DNA of 64,000 bases from assembly GCF_000521865.1 (NCBI RefSeq), contig NZ_JAME01000004.1, forward strand, positions 62,001 to 126,000, given 5' to 3'. Positions 1-12,036 of the stretch are shown one piece after another. A program made the translations under genes and the position numbers. The notes under the pieces were generated by a model. It was not told where the DNA came from and did not search any database. It was given only the letters and a program-made list of their open reading frames with translations. Positions within the stretch are counted from its first letter, which is position 1, and each line of letters begins with the position of its first letter. This stretch comes from Roseivivax isoporae LMG 25204 (GTDB lineage: Bacteria > Pseudomonadota > Alphaproteobacteria > Rhodobacterales > Rhodobacteraceae).

Positions 1-592
1 CGTGTCCATGGCCGCCGCGCTGAAGGCCGCGGGCCGGTCCTACGTGCTGCACTACGCGGCGCGCTCGCGCGCGGCCGCGGCGCTCGCCGATCACCTGGCC
101 GAGGCGCATGGCGACGCGCTGTCGCTGCATCTCGACGACACGGCCGGCGGGCCGCTCGACCTGGCCGCGGTCATGGCCGCGGCCGATCCGGCATCGCATG
201 TCTACATCTGCGGGCCGAAGCCCATGATCGAGGCGGCGCGCCGCGCGGCCGAGGCGGCGGGCATCCCGTCCGCGCGGATCCACGTGGAGCTCTTCGAGAG
301 CGCGGCGGCGCCCGCGGCGGGCGACGCGCCCTTCGAGGTCGAGCTCGCGTCGAGCGGAAAGGTCTACACGATTCCGCCCGGCCGCAGCATCATCGAGGTG
401 CTGGAGGAGGCGGGCGAGGACCTGATCTACGACTGCCAGCGCGGCGATTGCGGCATCTGCCAGACCGACGTGCTGGAGGGCGAGCCCGACCACCGCGACG
501 TGGTGCTGTCCGAGGACGAGCGCGCGTCGGGCAAGGTGATGCAGATCTGCGTGAGCCGGGCGAAATCCGCCCGCCTGAAGCTGGACCTCTGA
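1..592 (+). CDS. Rieske oxygenase reductase component, C-terminal part (5' truncated by window)
   Basis: Passes electrons from NAD(P)H through flavin to the Rieske oxygenase encoded next. The visible part is about 196 codons. The first half is the end of an NAD-binding domain, with the family signature YICGPKPMIEAA near residue 70. The last 90 residues are a plant-type [2Fe-2S] ferredoxin with CQRGDCGICQ followed by a later Cys in MQICVSRAKS. This order (flavin/NAD domain, then C-terminal ferredoxin) is that of the phthalate dioxygenase reductase/VanB class. The gene enters from outside the window, so the GTG at base 2 is not its start. It ends 12 bp before the oxygenase alpha gene and is surely co-transcribed with it. 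Confidence 0.88.
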   Translation, partial: VSMAAALKAAGRSYVLHYAARSRAAAALADHLAEAHGDALSLHLDDTAGGPLDLAAVMAAADPASHVYICGPKPMIEAARRAAEAAGIPSARIHVELFESAAAPAAGDAPFEVELASSGKVYTIPPGRSIIEVLEEAGEDLIYDCQRGDCGICQTDVLEGEPDHRDVVLSEDERASGKVMQICVSRAKSARLKLDL

Positions 593-604
593 GGGAGGAG
601 CGAG

Positions 605-1948
605 ATGGGACTTTCCACGAGACAGGACATCGAGGCGCTGGTGACCCCGTTCCAGGTGCACCGCGACGTCTACACCTCGGCCGAGGTCTACCGGCTGGAG
701 ATGAAGCATCTCTTCGCCAACACCTGGGTCTTCGTCGGCCATGACAGCCAGGTGCCGAACAAGGGCGACTACTACACCACGCAGGTGGGCGACCAGCCCG
801 TCATCATGGTGCGCCACTCGGACGGCGAGGTGAAGGTCCTCTACAACCGCTGCCCGCACAAGGGCACCAAGATCGCCATCGACCGCACCGGGAACACCGG
901 CAAGTTCTTCCGCTGCCCCTACCATGCCTGGTCGTTCAAGACCGATGGCTGCCTGCTCGCGATCCCGCTCAAGAAGGGCTACGATGGCACCGGCCTGTCC
1001 GAGACCGAGAGCGCGAAGGGCATGAAGGCCGTGGGCGCGGTCGAGGTCTATCGCGGCTTCGTCTTCGCCCGTCTCGCGCCCGAGGGCATCGGCTTTGCGG
1101 AATTCTTCGGCGACAGCCTGTCCTCCATCGACAACATGGTCGACCGCTCGCCCGCCGGGCGGCTCGAGGTGGCAGGGCAGCCGCTGCGCTACATGCACCG
1201 CTGCAACTGGAAGATGCTGGTCGAGAACCAGACCGACACCTGCCACCCGATGGTGGCGCACGAGAGCAGCGCCGGCACCGCCGTGCGCATCTGGGAGGAG
1301 ATGGACGCGCCCGAAGGCACGCCCAAGCCCGCGGCGATGCAGATCATCGCGCCCTTCATGAGCCCCTACGAGTTCTTCGAGGAAATGGGCATCCGCACCT
1401 GGCCGAACGGGCACGGGCACACCGGCGTGCACCACTCGATCCACTCTGCCTATTCCGAGATCCCGGGTTACATGGACGCCATGACCGCGGCCTACGGCGA
1501 GGAGCGCGCGACCGCGATCCTGGGCGAGAACCGGCACAACACAGTCTATTTCCCGAACATCATGATCAAGGGGCCGATCCAGCAGCTGCGGAACTTCATC
1601 CCGCTCGGGCCGGACAAGACGCTGGTCGAGAGCTGGATCTACCGGCTGGTGGACGCGCCCGACGAACTGGTGGCGCGCACCGCCATGTACAACCGCATGA
1701 TCAACGCGCCGACCTCGATCGTCGGGCACGACGACCTCGAGATGTACGAGCGCGCGCAGGAGGGGCTGATGTCCGACGGGCTCGAATGGGTGAACGTGCA
1801 GCGGCTCTACCGCGAGGGCGAGGATTTCGACACGACCGCCGAGGAGAACGGCACCACCGAGCGGCAGATGCGCAACCAGTTCCACGCCTGGGTCAAGTTC
1901 ATGACCGCCTCGATGCCGCGGGACGCCGCGCGGGAGGCGGCGGAATGA
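605..1948 (+). CDS. Rieske non-heme iron ring-hydroxylating oxygenase, alpha subunit
   Basis: Catalytic subunit of a two-component aromatic ring-hydroxylating oxygenase, 447 aa, the usual length. The Rieske centre ligands are C83/H85 (CPHKGTK) and C104/H107 (RCPYHAW). The mononuclear iron site and bridging Asp are seen in ENQTDTCHPMVAH as D211, H214 and H219. A strong ribosome site (GGGAGGAG) precedes the ATG. Its 3' end overlaps the beta-subunit start by 4 bp (ATGA). The substrate cannot be read from sequence. The neighbours (CoA ligase, DUF35 protein, isatin-hydrolase-like enzyme, aminobenzoyl-CoA-type oxygenase) make an indole-acetate-like substrate the leading guess. Anthranilate-, salicylate- or benzoate-type substrates are alternatives. 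Confidence 0.92.
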   Translation: MGLSTRQDIEALVTPFQVHRDVYTSAEVYRLEMKHLFANTWVFVGHDSQVPNKGDYYTTQVGDQPVIMVRHSDGEVKVLYNRCPHKGTKIAIDRTGNTGKFFRCPYHAWSFKTDGCLLAIPLKKGYDGTGLSETESAKGMKAVGAVEVYRGFVFARLAPEGIGFAEFFGDSLSSIDNMVDRSPAGRLEVAGQPLRYMHRCNWKMLVENQTDTCHPMVAHESSAGTAVRIWEEMDAPEGTPKPAAMQIIAPFMSPYEFFEEMGIRTWPNGHGHTGVHHSIHSAYSEIPGYMDAMTAAYGEERATAILGENRHNTVYFPNIMIKGPIQQLRNFIPLGPDKTLVESWIYRLVDAPDELVARTAMYNRMINAPTSIVGHDDLEMYERAQEGLMSDGLEWVNVQRLYREGEDFDTTAEENGTTERQMRNQFHAWVKFMTASMPRDAAREAAE

Positions 1949-2445
1949 GCGTCGCGACCACGGACCGCGCGGTGACCCGCGACGACCTCGTCGACTTCGT
2001 CTACGACGAGGTGCGCATGCTCGACGAGGGGCGCTGGGACGACTGGCTGAAGCTCTGGCTGCCGGACGGCATGTACTGGATGCCGCTCGACTACAAGCAG
2101 ACCGATCCGATCCACGAGACCTCGCTCATGTGGGAGGACCAGTTCATGCTGCGCCTGCGCGTCGAGCGGCTGAACGGGGCGCGCACCTTCTCGCAGAAGC
2201 CCAAGAGCCGCTGTCACCACGTGATCCAGCGCCCCTATGTCGACCGGATCGACAACGCGGCGGGCGAATACGTGGTGGTGACGCAGATGCACTATGTCGA
2301 GACGCGGCTCGACGACCAGATGCTGCTGGCGCTGACCGCCCGGCACGACCTCGTGCGCGAGGGGGACGCGTTGAGGATCCGGCAGAAGCGGGTGGACATC
2401 CTCAACTGCGACGCGGCCTTCGGCAACATCCAGCTGCTGCCATGA
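1945..2445 (+). CDS. Ring-hydroxylating oxygenase, beta subunit
   Basis: Structural beta subunit of the Rieske oxygenase, 166 aa, SnoaL/NTF2-like fold typical of ring-hydroxylating beta subunits. Family features are the N-terminal acidic helix with LVDFVYDEVRMLDEGRWDDW, the central H-x-I-x-RPYVDRI region and the C-terminal KRVDILN segment. It has no catalytic metal ligands; in this family it stabilises an alpha3beta3 assembly. The gene starts inside the end of the alpha gene (ATGA overlap) and overlaps the acyl-CoA ligase in the same way, so translation is likely coupled across the operon. Confidence 0.9.
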   Translation: MSVATTDRAVTRDDLVDFVYDEVRMLDEGRWDDWLKLWLPDGMYWMPLDYKQTDPIHETSLMWEDQFMLRLRVERLNGARTFSQKPKSRCHHVIQRPYVDRIDNAAGEYVVVTQMHYVETRLDDQMLLALTARHDLVREGDALRIRQKRVDILNCDAAFGNIQLLP

Positions 2446-4067
2446 GCCCGATGGACGCCGAGACGGTCGCGGGCGCGTTCGAGGCGGCCGCCACGCGCTG
2501 GCCCGCGCGGCCGGTGCTGAACGTGCTGCCAGAGACCGCGGAGGTCTACGGCATCCCCGCGGGCGAGATCGCCTACGGCGCGGCGGCCGAGCGGATCGCG
2601 GCACAGCGCGCGGCGTTCGCCGCGGCGGGATATGTCGCGGGCCAGCGGGTGATGCTGCTGCTCGAGAACCGGCCGGATTTCTTCCTCACCTGGCTCGCGC
2701 TGAACGGGCTCGGCCTGTCGGTGGTGCCGGTGAACCCGGACCTGCGGGCGGCCGAGCTCGAATACATGATCGGCCATGCCGAGCCCGCGGCCGCCATCGC
2801 GATCGCGTCCCGCGTCGCGGACCTCTCCGCCGCGGCCGAGGCCGCCGGCATCGCGATGCCGGTGGTGGCGCCAGGCGACGCGCTGCCCGCGCCGGGCCGC
2901 GGCCCGGTCTGCAGGGAGCCCGCGGCGGCGGAGGACCGCGAGGCGGCGATGCTCTACACCTCGGGCACGACCGGACGGCCCAAGGGATGCGTGCTGTCGA
3001 ACCAGTATTTCCTCGAGGCGGGCCGCTGGTACGCGGACGCGGGCGGCGTCTGCGCGCTGTCGGCGGAGGGCGAGCGCATGCTGACGCCGCTGCCGATCTT
3101 CCACATGAACGCCATGGCCTATTCGTTCATGGCGATGGTGGCGGTGGGCGGCTGCCTGACCGCGCTCGACCGCTTCCACCCGCGCACGTGGTGGGCGTCG
3201 GTCCGCGAGAGTGGCGCGACCTGCCTGCACTACCTGGGCGTGATGCCGTCCATGCTGATGGGTCTGCCCGAGGCGCCCGGCGACCGCGACCACGCGGTGC
3301 GGTTCGGCTTCGGCGCGGGGGTCGATCCCAAGCTGCACGCGGCCTTCGAGCGGCGGTTCGGCTTTCCGCTGATGGAGGCCTGGGCCATGACCGAGACCGG
3401 CGCGGGCGCGGTCGTCGCCGCGAACCATGCGCCGCGCAAGGTGGGGGTCGCCTGCTTCGGCCGTCCGGGGCCGGAGCTCGAGGTCCGCATCGTGGGCGAG
3501 GACGGCGCCGACGTGGCGCCGGGGGCGCCCGGCGAGCTCCTTGTGCGGCGGGCGGGCGACGATCCGCGGCGCGGCTTCTTCCGCGAGTACTGGCGCAACC
3601 CCGAGGAGACCGAGGCGGTCTGGGCGGGCGGCTGGTTCCACACCGGGGACGTGGTGCGGCAGGACGCGGACGGCTCGATGACCTTCGTCGACCGCAAGAA
3701 GAACGTGATCCGCCGCTCGGGCGAGAACATCGCGGCGGTCGAGGTGGAATCGGTGCTGATGCGCCATCCCGGGATCACCGCGGCGGGCGTCGCGGCGGTG
3801 CCCGACGACATCCGCGGCGACGAGGTCTTTGCCTGCCTGTCGGTCACCGGCGCGCGGGACGAGGGCGCGGCGCGGGCGATCGTGGACTGGGCGCTGACGC
3901 AGATGGCCTATTACAAGGTGCCGGGATACGTGGCTTTCGTCGACGCGCTGCCGCTGACCGCCACCAACAAGATCCAGCGCGGCGCGCTCAAGACCCTCGC
4001 GGCGGAGCTTCTGCGCGACGGGCGCGCGGTCGACACGCGCGGCATGAAGCGCAGGACCGCGGCATGA
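2442..4067 (+). CDS. ATP-dependent acyl/aryl-CoA ligase (ANL superfamily)
   Basis: Activates a carboxylic acid to its CoA thioester through an acyl-AMP, 541 aa. The P-loop YTSGTTGRPKG is present, with the A5 motif AWAMTETGAG, the A7 motif GWFHTGDVV and the A8 hinge DRKKNVIRRSGENIAAVEVE. The A10 lysine lies in LTATNKIQR. Overall form is closer to crotonobetaine/carnitine- and benzoate-type ligases than to long-chain ligases. It lies between the oxygenase and the thiolase-fold genes, with 4-bp overlaps on both sides. It therefore probably activates the hydroxylated acid made by the Rieske enzyme, so that a retro-aldol or thiolytic step can follow. Confidence 0.88.
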   Translation: MSPMDAETVAGAFEAAATRWPARPVLNVLPETAEVYGIPAGEIAYGAAAERIAAQRAAFAAAGYVAGQRVMLLLENRPDFFLTWLALNGLGLSVVPVNPDLRAAELEYMIGHAEPAAAIAIASRVADLSAAAEAAGIAMPVVAPGDALPAPGRGPVCREPAAAEDREAAMLYTSGTTGRPKGCVLSNQYFLEAGRWYADAGGVCALSAEGERMLTPLPIFHMNAMAYSFMAMVAVGGCLTALDRFHPRTWWASVRESGATCLHYLGVMPSMLMGLPEAPGDRDHAVRFGFGAGVDPKLHAAFERRFGFPLMEAWAMTETGAGAVVAANHAPRKVGVACFGRPGPELEVRIVGEDGADVAPGAPGELLVRRAGDDPRRGFFREYWRNPEETEAVWAGGWFHTGDVVRQDADGSMTFVDRKKNVIRRSGENIAAVEVESVLMRHPGITAAGVAAVPDDIRGDEVFACLSVTGARDEGAARAIVDWALTQMAYYKVPGYVAFVDALPLTATNKIQRGALKTLAAELLRDGRAVDTRGMKRRTAA

Positions 4068-5230
4068 CGCGACGCGATTACGCGGGCGTGGTGCTGGCGG
4101 CGCCCTTCTCGACGCCCTACACCCGCTATTCGACCGAGACCGCGCATCACTGGATCGCCCGGGCGCTCGCGGGCTGCCTGGACGCGGCGGGCCTCCGCAA
4201 GGACGCGGTGGACGGGCTGTCGGTCGCGTCCTTCACGCTGTTTCCGGACACGCCGGTGGGGCTGACCCAGCATCTGGGGTTCTCGCCCCGCTGGCTCGAT
4301 TCCATTCCCATGGGCGGCGCGTCCGGGGTGGTCGCGGTCCGGCGCGCGGCGCGCGCGGTGCAGGCGGGCGATGCCGACATCGTGGCCTGCGTCGCGGGCG
4401 ACACGAACCAGATCGACAGTTTCCGCAAGCTGCTGTCCTCGTTCTCGCGCTTCGCGATGGATGCGGCCTATCCCTACGGCTACGGCGGCCCGAACGCGAT
4501 GTTCGCACTGCTGACCGACCGCTACATGACCGAGTACGGCGCCACGCGCGCGGAGTTCGGCCATCTCTGTGTGGCGCAGCGGGCGAACGCGCTGCGGAAC
4601 CCGAACGCCGTGATGAAGACGCCGCTCAGCCTCGAGGATTATCTCGGCGCGCGGCCCATCGCGGACCCGATCGCGCTCTTCGACTGCGTGATGCCCTGTG
4701 CGGGCGCGGAGGCGTTCCTCGTCATGTCCGAGGATGCGGCGGCGCGCCTCGGGCTGCGGGGCGCGCGCATCGCGGGGACCATCGAGCGGCACAACGCCTT
4801 TCCCGACGATCCCGTGCAGCTGAGGGGCGGCTGGGCCGTCGACGTGGATGCGCTCTGGGCGCAGGCGGGCTGCGGGCCGGAGGACATGGACCTCGTGCAG
4901 ACCTACGACGACTACCCGGTGATCTCGGTGCTGCAATTCGAGGATCTCGGGTTCTGTCCCAAGGGCGAGGGGGCGGCGTGGCTCGCGGCGCGCGACCTAA
5001 CGGTGAGCGGCGACCTGCCGCACAACACCTCGGGCGGTCAGCTCTCGGCGGGCCAGGCGGGCGCGGCCGGCGGGTTCCTCGGCCTTGTCGAGGCGATCCG
5101 GCAGGTGACGGGGACCGCCGGGCCGACGCAGGTCGCGGGCGCCGCGCGCGCGCTGGTCTCTGGGTTCGGGATGATCAACTACGACCGCGGGCTCTGCTCG
5201 GGCGCGGCGGTGATCGAGGGCGTGGCATGA
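4064..5230 (+). CDS. Thiolase-fold protein lacking the nucleophilic Cys (SCPx/Ltp2-like, probable retro-aldolase subunit)
   Basis: Thiolase-superfamily protein of 388 aa related to lipid-transfer/SCPx thiolases. The position that holds the acylated Cys in true thiolases reads MGGASG here, so a normal Claisen thiolysis is unlikely. The rest of the fold is retained: QTYDDYPVISVLQFEDLGFC, HNTSGGQLSAGQ and a C-terminal GLCSGAAVI. The very next gene encodes a DUF35 protein. In steroid side-chain breakdown, Cys-less Ltp2-type proteins and DUF35 partners form a retro-aldolase acting on beta-hydroxyacyl-CoA esters. By that precedent this protein may release acetyl-CoA from a tertiary beta-hydroxyacyl-CoA. 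The assignment as aldolase is inference; membership in the thiolase superfamily is secure. Confidence 0.85.
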   Translation: MTRRDYAGVVLAAPFSTPYTRYSTETAHHWIARALAGCLDAAGLRKDAVDGLSVASFTLFPDTPVGLTQHLGFSPRWLDSIPMGGASGVVAVRRAARAVQAGDADIVACVAGDTNQIDSFRKLLSSFSRFAMDAAYPYGYGGPNAMFALLTDRYMTEYGATRAEFGHLCVAQRANALRNPNAVMKTPLSLEDYLGARPIADPIALFDCVMPCAGAEAFLVMSEDAAARLGLRGARIAGTIERHNAFPDDPVQLRGGWAVDVDALWAQAGCGPEDMDLVQTYDDYPVISVLQFEDLGFCPKGEGAAWLAARDLTVSGDLPHNTSGGQLSAGQAGAAGGFLGLVEAIRQVTGTAGPTQVAGAARALVSGFGMINYDRGLCSGAAVIEGVA

Positions 5231-6474
5231 CCGATCCGCTGAAGCCGCCACCCAAGAAGGACCCCCAGAAGGTGCAGGCGGTGCCGCTGCTGCCACCGTC
5301 CATGCGCAGCCGCGCGGCGATGGGCCTGACGGCCGCGGCCGCCGAGGCGCGGTTCATGCTGCAGCACTGCGCGCGCTGCGGCGCGGTGCAGTATCCCCCG
5401 CGCGACGCTTGCCGCGAGTGCCTGTCGGTGGATCTCGACTGGCGCGACACCGATCCGCGCGGCGTGCTGATCGCCGAGACCACGGTGCGCACCTCGCCCA
5501 ACCTCTACTTCCGCGGGCAGGCGCCGTGGCGGACCGGGACGGTGCGCCTCGAGGCGGGGGTGAGCGTCGTCGTGCACGTGCACGGCGATTGCGTGAAGGG
5601 ACAGGCGGTGCGGCTGATCAACCGGCTCGACCGCGCGGGACAGGGCGTGCTGATGGCGCTGCCCGAGGAGGCGACACCCGACATGGCCGACGATCCGGAA
5701 CTGCGCGAGCTGACCGCCGATCCGAAACACCGCCGCGTGCTGATCGCGGATGCGCGTGCCGACCACACCCCCGCGCTGGTGCAGGCGCTGCGGGCTGCGG
5801 GCGCCACGACGATCTTCCTCGGCGAGGCCGAGGCCTGGCGGCCGTGGCCGGGGCGCGCGGCGCTCGCGGCGCTGGAGGGCGTGCACATCCTGCCGCTCGA
5901 CGTGACCGATACCGCGTCGGTGACCGAGCTGGCCGGCGAGATCGGCGGCAAGGTCGACATCCTGATCAACAACGCGCGGTTCCTGCGGCCGGGCGGCGTC
6001 CTGTCGCGGACCGACACCGCCTGGGCGCGCGAGGAGATGGAGGTGAACGCGCTGGGGCTCATGCGGCTCGCGCAGGCCTTCGGGCCGGGGATGCGGGCGC
6101 GGGGCGCGGACGGCGTCAACAGCGCGGTCGCGTGGGTGAACATCCTGTCGGCGCACGCGCTGGTGCCGGACCCGGCCTACGGCGCCTTCGACGCGAGCCA
6201 GGCGGCGGCCCTGTCGCTGTCGCAATCGCTCCGGGCCGAGATGCGGCCGGGGGGCGTGCGGGTGATGAACGTGTTCACCGGGCCGACCGAGGACGCCTGG
6301 CACCAGGACGTGCCGCCGCCCAAGGTCACGCCCGGCGCGCTCGCGCGCGCGCTGGTGGCGGGGCTTCGCGAGGGGTGCGAGGAGGTCTGGTGCGGCGACG
6401 TGGCGCGCGACCTGGCCGAGCGGTGGCGCAAGGGCCCCAAGGTGCTCGAACGCGAGATGGGGGGCGACACATGA
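5227..6474 (+). CDS. DUF35 zinc-ribbon/OB-fold protein fused to a degenerate SDR domain
   Basis: A 415-aa two-domain protein. The N-terminal part (about residues 40-150) is a DUF35 rubredoxin-like zinc ribbon with C48, C51, C62 and C65, followed by an OB fold. The C-terminal part (about 170-400) has the SDR fold, shown by DVTDTASV and ILINNARF. The usual TGxxxGxG loop is IADARADH, and the YxxxK position reads YGAFD, so a dehydrogenase activity is doubtful. DUF35 proteins commonly bind thiolase-fold partners and CoA. Here the gene overlaps the thiolase-fold gene (ATGA), which supports a heteromeric complex. The SDR half may be structural or may bind a nucleotide without catalysis. Confidence 0.85.
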   Translation: MTDPLKPPPKKDPQKVQAVPLLPPSMRSRAAMGLTAAAAEARFMLQHCARCGAVQYPPRDACRECLSVDLDWRDTDPRGVLIAETTVRTSPNLYFRGQAPWRTGTVRLEAGVSVVVHVHGDCVKGQAVRLINRLDRAGQGVLMALPEEATPDMADDPELRELTADPKHRRVLIADARADHTPALVQALRAAGATTIFLGEAEAWRPWPGRAALAALEGVHILPLDVTDTASVTELAGEIGGKVDILINNARFLRPGGVLSRTDTAWAREEMEVNALGLMRLAQAFGPGMRARGADGVNSAVAWVNILSAHALVPDPAYGAFDASQAAALSLSQSLRAEMRPGGVRVMNVFTGPTEDAWHQDVPPPKVTPGALARALVAGLREGCEEVWCGDVARDLAERWRKGPKVLEREMGGDT

Positions 6475-7253
6475 GCGTGCTGGCGGGACTGGCGGGGGCG
6501 CTCGGCTCGGGCGCGGTCGAGGTGGTGGACCTGACCCACACGCTCGACCCGGATTTCCCGGTGATCGTGCTGCCGCCCGAGTTCGGGCAGTGCGCGCGGT
6601 TCCGGATGGAGGAAGTGTCGGCCTACGATCACCGCGGGCCGGCGTGGAAGTGGCACACCATCACCATGTCCGAGCATACGGGCACGCATTTCGACGCGCC
6701 CGTACACTGGATCTCGGGGCGCGACGTGCCGCGGGGCGCGGTGGACGAGATCGACCCCGCGGCCTTTGTCGGGCCGGTCTGCGTGATCGACTGCTCGGAG
6801 GGCGCGGCGGCGGACGACGATTTCGAGCTGACGCCCGAGATCATCGCCGCCTGGGAGGCGGTGCACGGCCGGATCCCGGCCGGGGCCTGGGTGCTCATGC
6901 GCACCGACTGGTCGAAGCGCACGGGCGCGGCCTACCTGAACCTGCGCGAGGACGGCGCCCATTCGCCGGGCCCCACGCCCGAGGCGGTGCGGCTGCTGGT
7001 CGAGGAGCGCGACATCCGCGGCTTCGGGACCGAGACGGTCGGCACGGATGCGGGGCAGGGCATGCATTACACGCCGCCCTTCCCGGCGCACTACATCCTG
7101 CACGGGGCGGGACGGCTCGGGCTCCAGTGCCTGTCGGGCCTCGACCGGCTGCCGCCCACGGGCGCGCTGCTGATCGCGGCGCCGCTCAAGATCAAGGGCG
7201 GGACCGGCTCGCCGCTCAGGGTGCTGGCCCTCGTCGAGAAGGAGACGGCATGA
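6471..7253 (+). CDS. Cyclase-family metal hydrolase, isatin-hydrolase-like
   Basis: A 260-aa member of the KynB/cyclase fold that hydrolyses cyclic amides with a divalent metal (manganese in isatin hydrolase). The metal-binding motif HTGTHFDAPVH is complete (H69, H73, D75, H79). Beyond the motif the protein matches the isatin hydrolase pattern as I remember it from Labrenzia, along nearly its whole length. Examples are VMRTDW-like VLMRTDWSKR, HSPGPTP, GTDAGQ, PPFPAH and the end segment GALLIAAPLKIKGGTGSP. Isatin hydrolase opens isatin to isatinate. Kynurenine formamidase (KynB) is the main alternative but is shorter and lacks several of these segments. It overlaps genes on both sides within the operon. 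Confidence 0.85.
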   Translation: MSVLAGLAGALGSGAVEVVDLTHTLDPDFPVIVLPPEFGQCARFRMEEVSAYDHRGPAWKWHTITMSEHTGTHFDAPVHWISGRDVPRGAVDEIDPAAFVGPVCVIDCSEGAAADDDFELTPEIIAAWEAVHGRIPAGAWVLMRTDWSKRTGAAYLNLREDGAHSPGPTPEAVRLLVEERDIRGFGTETVGTDAGQGMHYTPPFPAHYILHGAGRLGLQCLSGLDRLPPTGALLIAAPLKIKGGTGSPLRVLALVEKETA

Positions 7254-7972
7254 CCCACACGGCACTCATCACCGGCGGCAACAAGGGCATCGGCGCCGAT
7301 CTCGCGCAGGCCCTGCTCGACCGCGGCTACCGGGTCGTGTCGGTGGCGCGGCACGCGCCGGACGTCACCCACGAGCGGCTCGAGCACGCGGAATGCGACC
7401 TGCTCGATCCGGTGGCGGTCGCTGCGGTCGCGGCCGACATCGCCGCGCGGCACGAGATCACCCATCTGGTGCACAATGCGGGCGTGATCTGGCCGAACCG
7501 CGTCGAGGACGCGACGCCCGCCGACATCACCGGCCTCGCACAGCTGCATCTGGGATCGGCGCTGACGCTGCTGCAGGCCGCACTTCCGGCGATGAAAGAA
7601 CGGCGCTTCGGGCGCGTTCTTTTCAACTCGTCGCGTGCGGCGCTCGGCGCGGCGACGCGGACCGCCTACGGCGCGTCCAAGGCCGGCATGATCGGCATGG
7701 CGCGCACCTGGGCGCTGGAACTCGCGCCGCACGGCATCACGGTGAACGTGGTGGCGCCGGGACCGATCCAGACCGACAATTTCTGGGGAATCGTGCCGAA
7801 GGGGTCGGACCAGGAGGCCTCGCTCGCCACGCGCATCCCGGTGGGGCGGCTCGGGACGGTGGGCGACGTGACGCGCGCGTTCCTGTTCTTCTGCGATCCC
7901 GAGAACGGCTTCGTCACTGGCCAGACGCTCTATGTCTGCGGTGGCGCGAGCGTGGGGTCGGTGCCGATCTGA
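7250..7972 (+). CDS. Short-chain dehydrogenase/reductase (classical SDR)
   Basis: NAD(P)-dependent alcohol/ketone oxidoreductase of 240 aa with intact catalytic features: cofactor loop TGGNKGIG at residues 8-15, NAG in LVHNAGV, Ser in LFNSSRAA, and YGASK (YxxxK). The C-terminal GGASVGSVPI end is typical of FabG-like SDRs. It is the last gene of the forward operon, overlapping the isatin-hydrolase-like gene by 4 bp. It is followed by a strong hairpin. A role in oxidising or reducing a pathway ketone is likely, but the substrate is unknown. Confidence 0.88.
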   Translation: MTHTALITGGNKGIGADLAQALLDRGYRVVSVARHAPDVTHERLEHAECDLLDPVAVAAVAADIAARHEITHLVHNAGVIWPNRVEDATPADITGLAQLHLGSALTLLQAALPAMKERRFGRVLFNSSRAALGAATRTAYGASKAGMIGMARTWALELAPHGITVNVVAPGPIQTDNFWGIVPKGSDQEASLATRIPVGRLGTVGDVTRAFLFFCDPENGFVTGQTLYVCGGASVGSVPI

Positions 7973-7979
7973 TCGGGCG

Positions 7980-7999
7980 GGCCCCCCGCTTGGGGGGCC
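7980..7999. terminator. Bidirectional hairpin between convergent genes
   Basis: A perfect 8-bp inverted repeat (GGCCCCCC, 4-nt loop GCTT, GGGGGGCC) begins 8 bp after the SDR stop and ends 7 bp before the Rid gene stop on the other strand. There is no T-run on either side. In a GC-rich genome it still suits a shared terminator for the two converging transcripts. Confidence 0.6.
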
Positions 8000-8006
8000 T
8001 GCGCGC

Positions 8007-8408
8007 TCAGCCGTTCGGCAGGACCGCCGTCGCCTCGATCTCGACCTTCGCCTCGTCCTCGACGAGGGCACTCACCACGACCATGGTCATGGCGGGAAAG
8101 TGGTAGCCCATCACCTCGCGGTAGGCCGCGCCCACCTCGCGCTGGCGCGCGACGTATTCGGACTTGTCGGTGACGTACCAGGTCAGGCGCACGATGTCGG
8201 TGACGTCGCCGCCGGCGGCGCGCACCACCTCGGCGATGTTGACGAGCGCCTGCTTCATCTGGCCGATGAAGTCGTGGCTCTCGAAGACCTGCCGGGACGT
8301 CCAGCCGATCTGGCCGCCGACGAACAGCATGCGTCCCTCGGCGACGATGCCGTTGGCGTAACCCTTGGCGGGCGTCCAGCCTTCGGGGTGAATGGTGACC
8401 GTGCTCAC
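8007..8408 (-). CDS. Rid (YjgF/YER057c/UK114) family protein, non-archetypal
   Basis: A 133-aa Rid-family protein with a GTG start overlapping the stop of the upstream thioesterase gene (GTGA). Family segments are seen: LFVGGQIG, QMKQALVNIAEVV, VRLTWYVTD and KVEIEATAVLP. In true RidA enamine/imine deaminases a conserved Arg follows the Pro-Ala of the strand leading to the active site. Here that stretch is PAMTMVVV, so the Arg is missing. The protein therefore belongs to the Rid groups that lack proven imine-deaminase activity. In a pathway that would produce amino-cyclohexenone-type CoA esters, an enamine- or imine-handling role is attractive but not shown. Confidence 0.85.
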   Translation of the reverse strand: MSTVTIHPEGWTPAKGYANGIVAEGRMLFVGGQIGWTSRQVFESHDFIGQMKQALVNIAEVVRAAGGDVTDIVRLTWYVTDKSEYVARQREVGAAYREVMGYHFPAMTMVVVSALVEDEAKVEIEATAVLPNG

Positions 8409-8830
8409 TGCGGGGCATCCTCCAGATAACGTTCGAGCGCCCGGCGCGTGGGCTCGGGCCAGGGCTTCGATTTCAGCGGGTCGAGCGAGACGAGGACCAG
8501 CGTCGCCCGGGCGGTCAGCCGGGCGCTGCCGTCGTCGCCGGTGGCGTGCAGCACGAGGTCGAGGCTCGCGCCGCCGATGCGGGTGACGCGCAGCGACCAG
8601 TCGAGATCATCGCCGAGCCGCGAGGCGGCGTGGAACTCGGTGTCGATCCGAGCGGCGGGCACGCCCACCCGGTCCCGGCCGTGCATCCGCGCGAAGGACC
8701 AGCCGACCGCGTCGGCGAAGAACGTCTCGATCGCCGCGTTGATCATCTCGAAATAGCGCGGGTAGAAGACGATTCCGGCCGGGTCGCAATGCTGGAACAT
8801 CACGCTATTTCGCCACGCAAAGGCGGGCAT
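8405..8830 (-). CDS. Acyl-CoA thioesterase, 4-hydroxybenzoyl-CoA thioesterase (hot-dog) family
   Basis: A 141-aa single hot-dog-domain thioesterase. The signature HCDPAGIVFYPRYFEM near the N terminus carries the catalytic Asp of the 4-hydroxybenzoyl-CoA thioesterase/YbgC family. The ATG at 8830 was chosen because the fold begins within a few residues (FAWRNSVMFQHCDPAG). Upstream sequence in frame is not family-like. It is the first gene of a short minus-strand operon with the Rid gene and is divergent from the two-domain oxygenase. Likely role: releasing CoA from a dead-end or pathway aryl-CoA thioester. Confidence 0.87.
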   Translation of the reverse strand: MPAFAWRNSVMFQHCDPAGIVFYPRYFEMINAAIETFFADAVGWSFARMHGRDRVGVPAARIDTEFHAASRLGDDLDWSLRVTRIGGASLDLVLHATGDDGSARLTARATLVLVSLDPLKSKPWPEPTRRALERYLEDAPQ

Positions 8831-8918
8831 CAGCCGCGCCCCCCGTCCTGTTCGCCAATAGCCATGGGTCCTCGCCCGCTGCCGTTGCCCATCCACCTTC
8901 GGGCAGTGCGGCAAAAAC

Positions 8919-8944
8919 TTCAAGCCTAAAGTTTTATACTTGAA
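8919..8944. promoter_or_regulatory. Inverted repeat TTCAAG-N14-CTTGAA in divergent promoter region
   Basis: The 171-bp gap between the thioesterase (minus) and the two-domain oxygenase (plus) contains an AT-rich island unlike its surroundings. In it TTCAAG (8919-8924) and CTTGAA (8939-8944) form an inverted repeat with a 14-nt spacer. It is placed where a regulator could control both directions, and the island probably carries the promoters. No regulator gene is adjacent inside the window. Confidence 0.45.
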
Positions 8945-9001
8945 ATGAATCGCGGGCGGTGGGACAGTTCCGCCAAAGCTTGCCCGGAAGGAGAGCGCGC
9001 G

Positions 9002-11290
9002 ATGAAGATTGTCTGCCTCGGGGGAGGTCCGGCCGGCCTCTACTTCGCCATCAGCATGAAGCTGCGCCGCCCGGACGCCCAGGTGACCGTGCTGGAGCGC
9101 AACCGCGCCGACGACACCTTCGGCTGGGGGGTCGTGCTGTCGGACGAGACGCTCGACAACCTCGAGAAGAACGACCCGAAATCGGCCGCCCTGATCCGCG
9201 ACCATTTCGCCTACTGGGACGACATCAAGGTGGTGAAGGAGGACGTGGCGATCACGTCCACCGGCCACGGGTTCTGCGGGCTCGGGCGCAAGACGATGCT
9301 GCTGCTGCTGCAGGAACGCGCGCGGGAGCTGGACGTCGAGATGCGGTTCGAGACCGAGGTCGACGACATCGAGACGCTGATGCGCGAGAACGACCTCGTC
9401 GTGGCGGCGGACGGCATCAACTCGCGCACGCGGACGGCCTTTGCCGCCACGTTCAAGCCCGAGATCGACACCCGCGCGTGCAAGTTCATCTGGCTCGGCA
9501 CGCACGCGAAGTTCGACGACGCCTTCACCTTCATCTTCAAGAAGACCGAGGCGGGCTGGATCTGGGCGCATGCCTACCAGTTCGACGACGACACCGCGAC
9601 GTTCATCGTGGAATGCGCGGAGCCGACCTGGCGCGCGCTCGGCCTAGACACCGCGTCGCAGGACGAGACCATCGCGCTCTGCGAGAAGATCTTCGCGGAT
9701 CACCTGGACGGCCAGCCGCTCATGTCGAACGCCAAGCACCTGCGCGGCTCGGCCTGGCTGAACTTCAACCGCGTGCTCTGCGAGAAGTGGCACCACGAGA
9801 ACGTGGTCCTGCTGGGCGATTCCTCGGCGACCGCGCATTTCTCGATCGGGTCTGGCACCAAGCTCGCGCTAGAATCCGCGATCTCGCTCGCCGAGCTCGT
9901 GACCGAGAAGCCGACGCTGCGGGAGGCCTTCGAGACCTACCAGGAGGACCGTCGGCTCGACGTGCTGCGGCTGCAATCGGCGGCGCGCAACTCGACCGAG
10001 TGGTTCGAGGAGGTGGAGCGCTACCTGCATCTCGATCCGGTGCAGTTCACCTATTCGCTGCTCACGCGCAGCCAGCGCATCAGCCACGAGAACCTGCGCC
10101 TGCGCGACGCCGCATGGCTGCGGCAGGCCGAGGAGTGGTTCCAGGCGCAGGCGGGCGCCAACGGCGTGCACCGCGCGCCGATGTTCGCGCCCTTCGCGCT
10201 GCGCGACATGCGGCTCAAGAACCGCGTCGTGGTCTCGCCCATGGCGCAGTACAAGGCGGTGGACGGCTGCCCGACCGACTGGCACTTCTCGCATTATGCA
10301 GAGCGGGCAAAGGGCGGTGCGGGCCTCGTCTACATCGAGATGACCTGCGTCAGCCCCGAGGGGCGGATCACGCCGGGATGCCCGGGTCTCTACGCGCCCG
10401 AACACGAGGCCGCGTGGAAGCGGCTCTGCGATTTCGTGCATGCCGAGACCGACGCGAAGCTCTGCATGCAGATCGGCCATGCGGGCCGAAAGGGATCGAC
10501 CCAGATCGGCTGGGAGGAAATGGACGCGCCGCTGCCCGCGAACAACTGGCCGCTCCTGTCGGCCTCGGCGGTCCCGTGGTCCGACCGCAACGCGGTGCCG
10601 AAGGCCATGGACCGTTCCGACATGGACCGGGTGCGCGACGAATTCGTCGCCGCGACGGAGATGGCGGCACGGGCGGGCTTCGACATGATCGAGCTGCACG
10701 CGGCGCACGGGTACCTGTTGTCCTCGTTCATCTCGCCGATCTCGAACCTGCGCGACGACGAATACGGCGGATCGCTCGAGAACCGGATGCGCTGGCCGCT
10801 CGAGGTGTTCCGCGCCATGCGCGCGGCCTGGCCCGAGGAAAAGCCCATGTCGGTGCGGATCTCGGCAACCGACTGGATCGGCAGCCGCGGCGTCGAGGGC
10901 GAGGAGGCGGTCGAGATCGCGTCGATGTTCCGCGCGGCAGGCGTCGACATCGTCGATGTCTCGGCGGGCCAGACCAGCGTCGAGGCGCGCCCCGTCTACG
11001 GCCGGATGTTCCAGACGCCGTTCTCGGACCGCATCCGTAACGAGCGCGGCATTCCCACCATGGCGGTCGGCAACATCTACGAGCCCGACCACGTGAACTC
11101 GATCCTGATGGCGGGACGGGCGGACCTGGTCTGCCTCGCGCGGCCGCACCTGGCCGATCCCTACTGGACGCTGCATGCCGCGGCGGCCCTCGGCGACGAG
11201 GACACCGCCTGGCCCGATCCCTACCTTCCGGGCCGCGACCAGATGCGCCGGCTCGCCACCCGCGGCGAGGGGCTGGGGATCCGGGTATGA
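9002..11290 (+). CDS. Two-domain aryl-CoA monooxygenase/reductase (2-aminobenzoyl-CoA or salicylyl-CoA 5-hydroxylase type)
   Basis: A 762-aa fusion. Residues 1 to about 380 are an FAD monooxygenase with the dinucleotide motif [10 protein letters not shown] and the second FAD motif [18 protein letters not shown]. Residues about 390-760 are an Old Yellow Enzyme-type flavin oxidoreductase ([31 protein letters not shown]). This domain pair is known from 2-aminobenzoyl-CoA monooxygenase/reductase, which hydroxylates and then reduces the ring, and from salicylyl-CoA 5-hydroxylase SdgC. A clear ribosome site (GGAAGGAGA) sets the start. It overlaps the next SDR by 4 bp. With an isatin-hydrolase-like gene nearby, the aminobenzoyl-CoA reading is favoured, but salicylyl-CoA cannot be excluded. 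Confidence 0.88.
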
Positions 11291-12036
11291 CCGATCTCAC
11301 GGGACGCACGGCCCTGGTGACGGGCGGGGGCGCGGGCCTCGGCGCGGCGCTGGCGCGGGGGCTCGCCGAGGCGGGCGCCGAGGTCTGGATCGCCGGGCGC
11401 CGCGCCGGCCCGCTCGAGGCGGTGGCGGCGACGCATGCGCGCATCCGCGCGGTCGAGGCCGACGTGACCGACGAGACCTCCGTCGAGGCGATGTTCGAGT
11501 TCGCGGGCCCCTGCGACATCGTGATCGCCAATGCGGGCGCGTCCGAAAGCGCGCCCTTCTCGCGCACCGGGCTCGACACCTGGCGGGCGATGATCGACGT
11601 GAACCTCACCGGCGCCTTCCTGACGCTGCGCGAGGGCGCGGCGCGGCTCAAGGGCGCGGAGTGGGGCCGGCTGATCGCCGTGTCCTCGACCGCGGGGCTC
11701 AAGGGCTACGCCTACGTGTCGGCCTATGCCGCTGCAAAGCACGGTGTCGTCGGCATGGTCCGGTCCGCCGCGCTCGAGATGGCGCGCACGGGCGTGACGG
11801 TGAACGCGCTCTGCCCGGGCTTTCTCGAGACCGAGATGACCGACCGCTCGATCGCCAACATCGCCGAGAAGACCGGCATGAGCCCCGAGGATGCGCGGGC
11901 GCAGCTCGAGCAGATGAGCCCGCAGCGGCGCCTGATACGCCCCGAGGAAGTGGTGGCCGCGGCGCTCTGGCTCTGCGGGCCGGGATCGGAAGGGATCACC
12001 GGCCAGGCGATCGCGATCGCCGGCGGCGAGGCCTGA
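11287..12036 (+). CDS. Short-chain dehydrogenase/reductase (SDR)
   Basis: A 249-aa classical SDR resembling 3-hydroxybutyrate/3-hydroxyacyl-CoA dehydrogenases. It has TGGGAGLG near residue 12, NAG in VIANAGAS, Ser in [14 protein letters not shown] as the YxxxK motif, and the FLETEMT segment after the NALCPG strand. It overlaps the oxygenase-reductase gene (ATGA). A fitting job is oxidation or reduction of the hydroxyl/keto group on the dearomatised ring or on a ring-opened beta-hydroxyacyl-CoA. The exact substrate is not readable. Confidence 0.87.

Follow-up and report, generated by a model that had tools for sequence, protein, structure and literature searches.

A candidate retro-aldolase and a candidate isatinate oxidoreductase associated with the indole-3-acetate degradation (iad) operon of Roseivivax isoporae

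By what chemistry is the side chain of indole-3-acetate (IAA) removed in aerobic auxin breakdown, and which enzyme takes on the opened ring? These questions are raised by the left end of a 64,000-nucleotide stretch of Roseivivax isoporae LMG 25204 DNA (bases 62001-126000 of the 197,161-base contig C4; genome 4.9 Mb), hereafter the window, which carries genes of an iad operon. Because the gene of the oxygenase reductase and that of the regulator are situated to the left, the adjoining 38 kb (L009 and L010) were also examined, and positions there are written as window numbers below 1. We consider it probable that IAA is degraded here by the iad operon through a retro-aldol cleavage by IadG and IadH, hydrolysis of isatin by IadI, an isatinate step catalysed by an IorAB-type pair, and onward conversion by a two-domain aryl-coenzyme A (CoA) monooxygenase/reductase (ACMR).

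Judging by gene content and order, positions 1-7972 are an iad operon for the aerobic breakdown of IAA; loci of this kind have been described before. All of its genes lie on the plus strand: iadC, the oxygenase reductase (whole gene -367..592, L009:17633-18592, with 1..592 in the window; Fer2 and NAD-binding domains); iadD and iadE, the alpha and beta subunits of a Rieske oxygenase (605..1948 and 1945..2445, the latter PF00866); iadF, an acyl-CoA ligase of the AMP ligase type (2442..4067; PF00501); iadG, a thiolase-fold protein and proposed retro-aldolase (4064..5230); iadH, a DUF35 protein (zinc ribbon, OB) fused to a degenerate short-chain dehydrogenase/reductase (SDR) domain (5227..6474; PF12172, PF01796, PF00106); iadI, encoding an isatin hydrolase A type protein (6471..7253); and iadJ, an SDR dehydrogenase with intact motif residues (7250..7972), at which the operon proper ends. 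A four-base overlap is found at each junction from iadD to iadJ. The genes named in the preliminary description of this DNA are all open at the positions it gave and have Pfam or NCBIfam support; its two SDRs, however, are three SDR domains, one of them fused to DUF35.

The assignment to IAA, also made in that description, is supported by the oxygenase and by the regulator. IadD shares 58% identity with its Variovorax counterpart, matching 9o71 (Variovorax IadD) with 577 bits and 7yls, which we take to be an earlier structure of the same protein, with 572; the next non-Iad chain in PDB reaches 154. The Rieske motif was kept in 81 of 81 sequences, namely the window and 80 relatives, the relatives being the best 80 of at least 570 encoding stretches from a contig scan, some of them cut by contig ends. 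Within these 80 loci, with more than half of the query covered, we found homologues of iadC in 78, iadD in 80, iadE in 80, iadF in 72, iadG in 67, iadH in 67, iadI in 65, iadJ in 74 and marR in 75, a few F and G matches being distant paralogues; neighbours recur in this way more often than chance would give. The closest solved relative of the MarR regulator is 3CDH (79 of 134 aligned residues identical). The order iadCDEFGHIJ is also that of the published Variovorax operon, so that the comparison with characterised iad clusters agrees in both gene order and IadD. Ruegeria pomeroyi DSS-3, which we take to be the same strain as ATCC 700808, carries C to J in this order as well (NC_006569, SPO_RS20500-SPO_RS20465). 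R. pomeroyi (ATCC 700808) has been reported to degrade IAA, and its MarR 3CDH binds IAA at 0.237 uM, the highest affinity of the MarRs measured there (PMC9613470). In a 2025 preprint, the Variovorax genes iadCDEFGHIJK2 are described as encoding a reductase, a Rieske pair, an acyl-CoA synthase, an acetyltransferase, an alcohol dehydrogenase, a kynurenine-formamidase-like protein, a dehydrogenase and an uptake protein (PMC12633357), and the IMG gene ids run unbroken from IadC to IadK3 (PMC10374108).

Among 198 family genomes, each from a different genus, IadD and IadG (E up to 1e-120) were confined to the same 16. At a threshold of 55% identity and 70% coverage, iadG was present in 66 of the 80 relatives, and 14 had no close iadG in the stretch, one of these (L047) being cut by a contig end. 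A pathway lacking IadG was considered and rejected: when the genomes of the other 13 and four sampled ones were searched, 16 of the 17 encoded IadG elsewhere with 61-77% identity, and G324 was the sole genome in which the genome-wide search did not find it. Separately, the iad genes are split in L031, L032, L111, L113 and L115, where CDE-J (CDEF-J in L115) stay together and the rest lie on the opposite strand or elsewhere; this suggests that the iad genes form exchangeable modules.

The nucleophilic Cys, the His of the HDAF motif and the His of the GHP motif are the catalytic residues of thiolases. In alignments with the thiolases BbsB (7pxp) and 7yvy, these three residues fall on Gly85, Tyr281 and Gln331 of IadG. 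Seventy sequences each of IadG and IadH were aligned (the window, 66 relatives, R. pomeroyi L108, the Variovorax-type L109, and L116 from G319; the relatives' IadH at 50% identity and 70% coverage). Gly85, Tyr281, Asp282, Asp283, Tyr284, Gln326 and Gln331 were each present in 70 of 70 IadG sequences, and the thiolase Cys and both His in none. "Cys-less", as the preliminary description put it, is thus not quite the word: IadG has eight cysteines, though Gly85 occupies the position of the nucleophile.

This pattern resembles that of the steroid aldolases Sal-Shy(DUF35) and Ltp2-ChsH2(DUF35) (9myr, 6ok1; PMC12329534), which likewise combine a thiolase fold devoid of the nucleophilic Cys, the catalytic Tyr of a YDxF/Y motif, a DUF35 partner and a substrate of the beta-hydroxyacyl-CoA type. 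By our own count along the alignment, the IadG residues map to CtSal Gly89, Tyr302, Cys304 (at Asp283), Gln347 and Gln352, both Gln being kept. Mutation has shown a catalytic role for Tyr302 and Cys304 of CtSal, the residues named for TcLtp2 are Tyr294 and Tyr344, and a Gly at the Cys position is stated to rule out thiolysis (PMC12329534). Among solved relatives, IadG scores 172 bits to Sal, 152 to 4u4e, 131 to Ltp2, 116 to 7yvy and 101 to BbsB, and Foldseek ranked the Sal-Shy(DUF35) aldolase first for the IadG model, followed by Ltp2-ChsH2(DUF35) and then 4u4e and the thiolase 7yvy; Sal is therefore the best PDB match by both sequence and fold. Since the thiolase residues are gone, the Tyr/Gln pattern is that of Sal and Sal is the best match, IadG and IadH most likely split dioxindole-3-acetyl-CoA. 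That they form a retro-aldolase giving isatin and acetyl-CoA is, in our view, very probable and well supported by the residues. IadG differs from both steroid enzymes in having YDDY instead of YDCY or YDHF, in the fusion of its DUF35 partner to a degenerate SDR and in the proposed indole substrate; it may work in a Sal-like manner, yet it falls outside both the Sal and the Ltp2 classes.

IadH combines zf-ChsH2, OB_ChsH2_C (DUF35) and SDR domains in one protein according to Pfam. Its four zinc-ribbon cysteines are kept in 69 of 70 sequences, the remaining row being a gap. In the C-terminal domain, by contrast, although the fold is that of an SDR, the first Gly of TGxxxGxG is found in 0 of 70, the Tyr in 7 and the Lys in 1, never both. 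As no sequence (0/70) has intact SDR motifs, IadH was rejected as a dehydrogenase. IadJ shows the opposite picture, with TGxxxGxG, Ser128, Tyr140 and Lys144 kept in 75 of 75 sequences (the window and 74 relatives). The 50 fold matches listed for the IadH model all belong to the SDRs, headed by 5u4s, and none of the 50 is a DUF35 structure; the DUF35 assignment comes from Pfam and from weak sequence matches to ChsH2 (E 4.7e-5) and Shy (E 0.009).

The preliminary description had placed an isatin hydrolase at 6471-7253, and the identity of IadI is now nearly certain. It is 80% (205/255) identical to 5nnb, the crystallised isatin hydrolase A, and 5nnb is itself 100% identical over 255 aa to the iadI product of Roseibium aggregatum IAM 12614 (L044). 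The HxG[TA]HxDxPxH metal motif is conserved in 65 of 65 sequences (the window and 64 relatives). Since the crystallised enzyme is the product of an iadI gene, and given the 80% identity, IadI favours isatin as an intermediate.

From these data we propose the following route. According to work on Variovorax, a single oxygen is introduced into IAA by IadCDE, the conversion to dioxindole-3-acetate is finished by IadJ, and anthranilate production reaches its normal level only with IadF, G, H and I present (PMC12633357); the preliminary description had the oxygenase itself make dioxindole-3-acetate, and that part gives way to a mono-oxygenated product finished by IadJ. IadF, proposed as a dioxindole-3-acetate:CoA ligase from its position and from the role given to it in the preprint, would form dioxindole-3-acetyl-CoA, a beta-hydroxyacyl-CoA. 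IadG, together with the DUF35 domain of IadH, would cleave this ester in a redox-neutral retro-aldol reaction, releasing isatin (C8H5NO2) and acetyl-CoA; Tyr281 would serve as base, Asp283 as acid and the SDR domain of IadH as a non-catalytic partner. A thiolase/DUF35 split to these products had been suggested before; the residues support the cleavage, as a retro-aldol rather than a thiolytic one. IadI would then hydrolyse isatin to isatinate, as reported for isatin hydrolase A. An IorAB-type enzyme would decarboxylate isatinate oxidatively with CoA, giving 2-aminobenzoyl-CoA directly, which would be taken on by ACMR (9002-11290) with SDR, hydratase and dehydrogenase partners.

The isatinate step had been expected left of the window, and it is there that we found a pair of genes of the IorA/IorB type (-29395..-25680, C4:32605-36320; TPP domain in IorA, POR and DUF6537 in IorB) beside a second isatin hydrolase gene (-30821..-30033), whose product matches crystallised isatin hydrolase B (4j0n) along its full length with 521 bits and is its predicted ortholog. 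IorAB, 26-29 kb from the window, is thus on the same contig as the iad operon, though not adjacent to iadC. Isatinate is the same compound as 2-aminophenylglyoxylate, an aryl-glyoxylate. By analogy with phenylglyoxylate:acceptor oxidoreductase, its conversion by an enzyme of this type would give 2-aminobenzoyl-CoA and CO2. Elsewhere, IorAB immediately precedes iadC in L111 and L113; L086 has the order IorAB-FGHI-CDE-J on one strand; and in L109, whose IadD is 94% identical to that of Variovorax and whose iad order is the same, iorB stands directly before iadC, where the examined stretch ends. IorAB (iadAB) has been described as a marker of iad-like operons (PMC9613470).

Of the 198 genomes, 38 encode IorA with at least 65% identity and 37 an isatin-hydrolase-like protein (E up to 1e-60); 37 have both, 1 (G559) has IorA only, 0 have the hydrolase only and 160 have neither. 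When all 43 IorA genomes are counted, including a group with 54-58% identity, the figures are 37, 6, 0 and 155. A hydrolase gene starts within 6 kb of 27 of the 39 IorA copies at the higher cut-off; of the 12 others, 7 have no hydrolase on the same contig. IorA and ACMR occur together in 35 genomes, IorA only in 3, ACMR only in 33 and neither in 127. Fisher p values calculated for such tables disregard relatedness among the genomes and are not taken as proof. We also inspected seven stretches from iad-less genomes, five picked for close IorA and ACMR genes and two among the best-scoring IorA matches: L133-L136 contain hydrolase B, IorAB and ACMR together, L137 contains IorAB and ACMR, and L138 and L139 contain hydrolase, IorAB and ridA, with ACMR not within the stretch. 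Hydrolase B and IorAB in these iad-less genomes (L133-L139) would lead one to expect an isatin source other than IAA, perhaps indole. Taken together, IorAB is a good candidate for the isatinate enzyme, an assignment we favour with some reserve. The fuller proposal, namely a YDDY-type, DUF35-dependent aldolase with a dead SDR scaffold plus IorAB as isatinate:ferredoxin oxidoreductase, so that IAA reaches aminobenzoyl-CoA without free anthranilate and another isatin source enters the same route in iad-less genomes, is about evenly poised between right and wrong.

Several observations weigh against this reconstruction. TM-scores (query) hardly separate the classes for IadG (Sal 0.84, Ltp2-ChsH2 0.79-0.80, 4u4e 0.79, 7yvy 0.78-0.80), and TbSLP and the BbsB chain 7pyt, at 0.83, come near Sal; as the fold alone does not decide between aldolase and thiolase, the retro-aldolase argument rests on residues. 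The IadG model has a mean predicted local distance difference test (pLDDT) score of 81.9, with values below 50 at 117-122, 125-141, 203-209, 327-332 and 372-375, so that the model is poor in a portion of the active site that includes Gln331. Asp283 sits where Sal has its other catalytic residue, Cys304, and Tyr344 of Ltp2 is absent; with neither kept, the choice of Asp283 as acid is guesswork. For the SDR domain of IadH, the closest relative with a structure is 5u4s, a protein crystallised with NADP, which leaves cofactor binding by IadH conceivable. IorA scores 286.6 bits to TIGR03336 (indolepyruvate ferredoxin oxidoreductase, cut-off 650.9), two further, weaker genes of the IOR/POR type lie on C5 and C7, and the 65% cut-off was set after the matches had been seen, five genomes having only the 54-58% group. 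Within the examined stretches of the best 80 iad loci, IorA is found in just 14 and IorB in 13, and ACMR is missing from 2 of the 16 iad genomes, the ACMR of G543 being just 49% identical. In a Variovorax HS33 deletion, iadC-K2 restores anthranilate (PMC12633357); as this segment, by its nomenclature, does not include iadAB, IorAB seems not to be required there. Finally, loss of IadI leads to accumulation of C8H7NO2 (the formula of dioxindole, isatin plus two hydrogens) and not of isatin, IadH is read as an alcohol dehydrogenase, and C7H7NO was seen, suggesting an aldehyde route (PMC12633357). We infer that C8H7NO2 is isatin reduced by other enzymes.

The alternative that survives best concerns IorAB, which might make indoleacetyl-CoA from indolepyruvate upstream of IAA and be loosely tied to the isatin branch. 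The family name speaks for this role, and homologues are labelled indolepyruvate ferredoxin oxidoreductase in PMC9613470; but the IorA score lies far under the cut-off of that family, and the 182 iad-less genomes still show the association with isatin hydrolase (21 with both, 1 with IorA only, 0 with hydrolase only, 160 with neither). We therefore regard this role as possible but unlikely.

The route in the preprint, with IadG a ketothiolase and IadH an alcohol dehydrogenase acting with IadF in a reductive side-chain removal to C8H7NO2 (dioxindole), and with anthranilate then formed via C7H7NO (2-aminobenzaldehyde) and no IorAB step, appears improbable to us. It has in its favour the formulas C8H7NO2, C8H7NO3 and C7H7NO found in mutants and overexpressers and the sufficiency of iadC-K2 for anthranilate (PMC12633357). 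However, the ketothiolase label for IadG was rejected because the thiolase Cys and both His are absent in 70 of 70 sequences; the SDR motifs of IadH are intact in none of 70; IadI belongs to the isatin hydrolases; and retro-aldol isatin, later reduced by other enzymes, gives the same C8H7NO2.

Poorer still are the prospects of a route in which the ring is opened first and IadG thiolyses 2-aminobenzoylacetyl-CoA to 2-aminobenzoyl-CoA and acetyl-CoA, isatin being a side product. An older Bradyrhizobium proposal via 2-aminobenzoylacetate (cited in PMC8383072) points this way, and ACMR would be supplied directly; but IadG has neither the thiolase nucleophile nor the histidines, and an isatin hydrolase found in the locus of 65 of 80 relatives would be left with no role. 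That the substrate of oxygenase and ligase is some unrelated aromatic acid, for instance salicylate or benzoate, as might be read from the NCBIfam benzoate and anthranilate dioxygenase models that match IadD (all far below cut-off, on which ground a salicylate or benzoate operon was rejected) and from the NCBIfam name salicylyl-CoA 5-hydroxylase for the two-domain enzyme, is scarcely credible beside the bit scores of IadD to the Variovorax and next non-Iad chains and the match of regulator and operon to those of IAA degraders.

To the right of the operon lie genes for a RidA family protein (8007..8408, minus strand; below the TIGR00004 cut-off) and a 4HBT-type thioesterase (8405..8830, minus; PF13279), then those for ACMR (9002..11290, plus; NF006101 1287 bits, cut-off 1078) and an SDR (11287..12036, plus; PF00106). 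NF006101 is named for salicylyl-CoA 5-hydroxylase, and we assume 2-aminobenzoyl-CoA monooxygenase/reductase to be of the same family. In L136, ridA clusters with ligase, thioesterase and ACMR genes, and an SDR gene of 45-66% identity follows ACMR in L133-L137. The whole block stands beside iad in 1 of the 80 relatives (L012, the sole one with ACMR within the stretch around iad); L026, L027 and L060 have parts of it with 53-71% identity, and 8 more have a ridA-like gene (44-49% identity) near iad. IadD and ACMR occur together in 14 of the 198 genomes, IadD only in 2, ACMR only in 54 and neither in 128. The iad operon and 8007-12036, taken as one locus in the preliminary description, are separate units. 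Beyond 12036, a block opens with phospholipid-type genes, judged from translations.

Further left, a minus-strand cluster (-16919..-11587, L009:1081-6413) encodes a MarR, an enoyl-CoA hydratase family protein (479.7 bits, cut-off 330), an acyl-CoA dehydrogenase (below all cut-offs), a tryptophan 2,3-dioxygenase (398.5, cut-off 390.7), a cupin and an aryl-CoA ligase (benzoate-CoA-ligase-like, 366, just short of 375). It looks like a cluster for catabolism of tryptophan to aminobenzoyl-CoA, and its gene content fits anthranilate rather than salicylate; to judge from gene position, the tryptophan and IAA routes may converge at aminobenzoyl-CoA here.

Immediately left of the operon, TRAP transporter genes and a divergent marR occupy -3865..-544 on the strand opposite to iad, and beyond them come a flavin monooxygenase, a cupin and a Liv ABC transporter. 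An inverted repeat, AAAATATGAAATCGCATCTTTT, of the AAAATATGA...TCTTTT type, lies between dctP and iadC (L009:17524-17545, window -476..-455). Like palindromes were found at a similar position in 5 of 11 relatives inspected (L011, L012, L013, L015 and L020); the repeat is a possible MarR operator, five of 11 being too few for an operator claim. A livF-type ABC ATPase gene contains a perfect 39-bp tandem duplication (L009:11979-12056, window -6021..-5944), repeating 13 residues in frame. A ParA-type gene (Pfam) and a ParB-like gene (by eye) at L010:2345-4710 (window -35555..-33190) suggest that the 197-kb contig C4 may be a plasmid or chromid. IadG at 60-80% identity is encoded on 32 plasmid records.

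The locus can be set beside known systems. The iad operon of Variovorax paradoxus CL014 (PMC9613470, PMC10374108, PMC12633357) shares the order C-D-E-F-G-H-I-J, the Rieske pair and MarR control, and the annotation of its IadI is kynurenine formamidase, an enzyme related in fold to isatin hydrolase; in Roseivivax, by contrast, IorAB (iadAB) is 26 kb left of the window and not beside iadC, and the operon has TRAP and Liv ABC genes next to it and is followed by the aminobenzoyl-CoA-type block. R. pomeroyi DSS-3 shares the order C to J, and IAA degradation and an IAA-binding MarR are reported there, but its proteins are 47-63% identical and an ACMR homologue was not found in the 21 kb examined. 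The isatin hydrolases A and B of Labrenzia (Roseibium) aggregata (5nnb, 4j0n; PMC6117287) resemble IadI and the paralogue beside IorAB, respectively; the passages of that paper give them no genomic role such as an iad operon or IorAB neighbour, and its text lacks the words "operon" and "gene cluster". In the literature compared (mostly open-access papers), we found no aldolase or IorAB role for the IAA/isatin pathway, and PMC9613470, which mentions both isatin and indolepyruvate ferredoxin oxidoreductase, gives no such role in its passages.

Our analysis suggests two assignments that were open or made otherwise in this literature, an aldolase-like pair for side-chain removal and a keto-acid oxidoreductase for the opened ring. 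Work is under way to engineer the iad operon into root bacteria for auxin control, its middle steps having been assigned from annotation (PMC12633357). Should IadGH prove to be a retro-aldolase and IorAB to oxidise isatinate, the pathway would become redox-balanced, both crystallised isatin hydrolases would be given a place in a genomic context, and auxin would yield carbon and energy as acetyl-CoA plus an aroyl-CoA.

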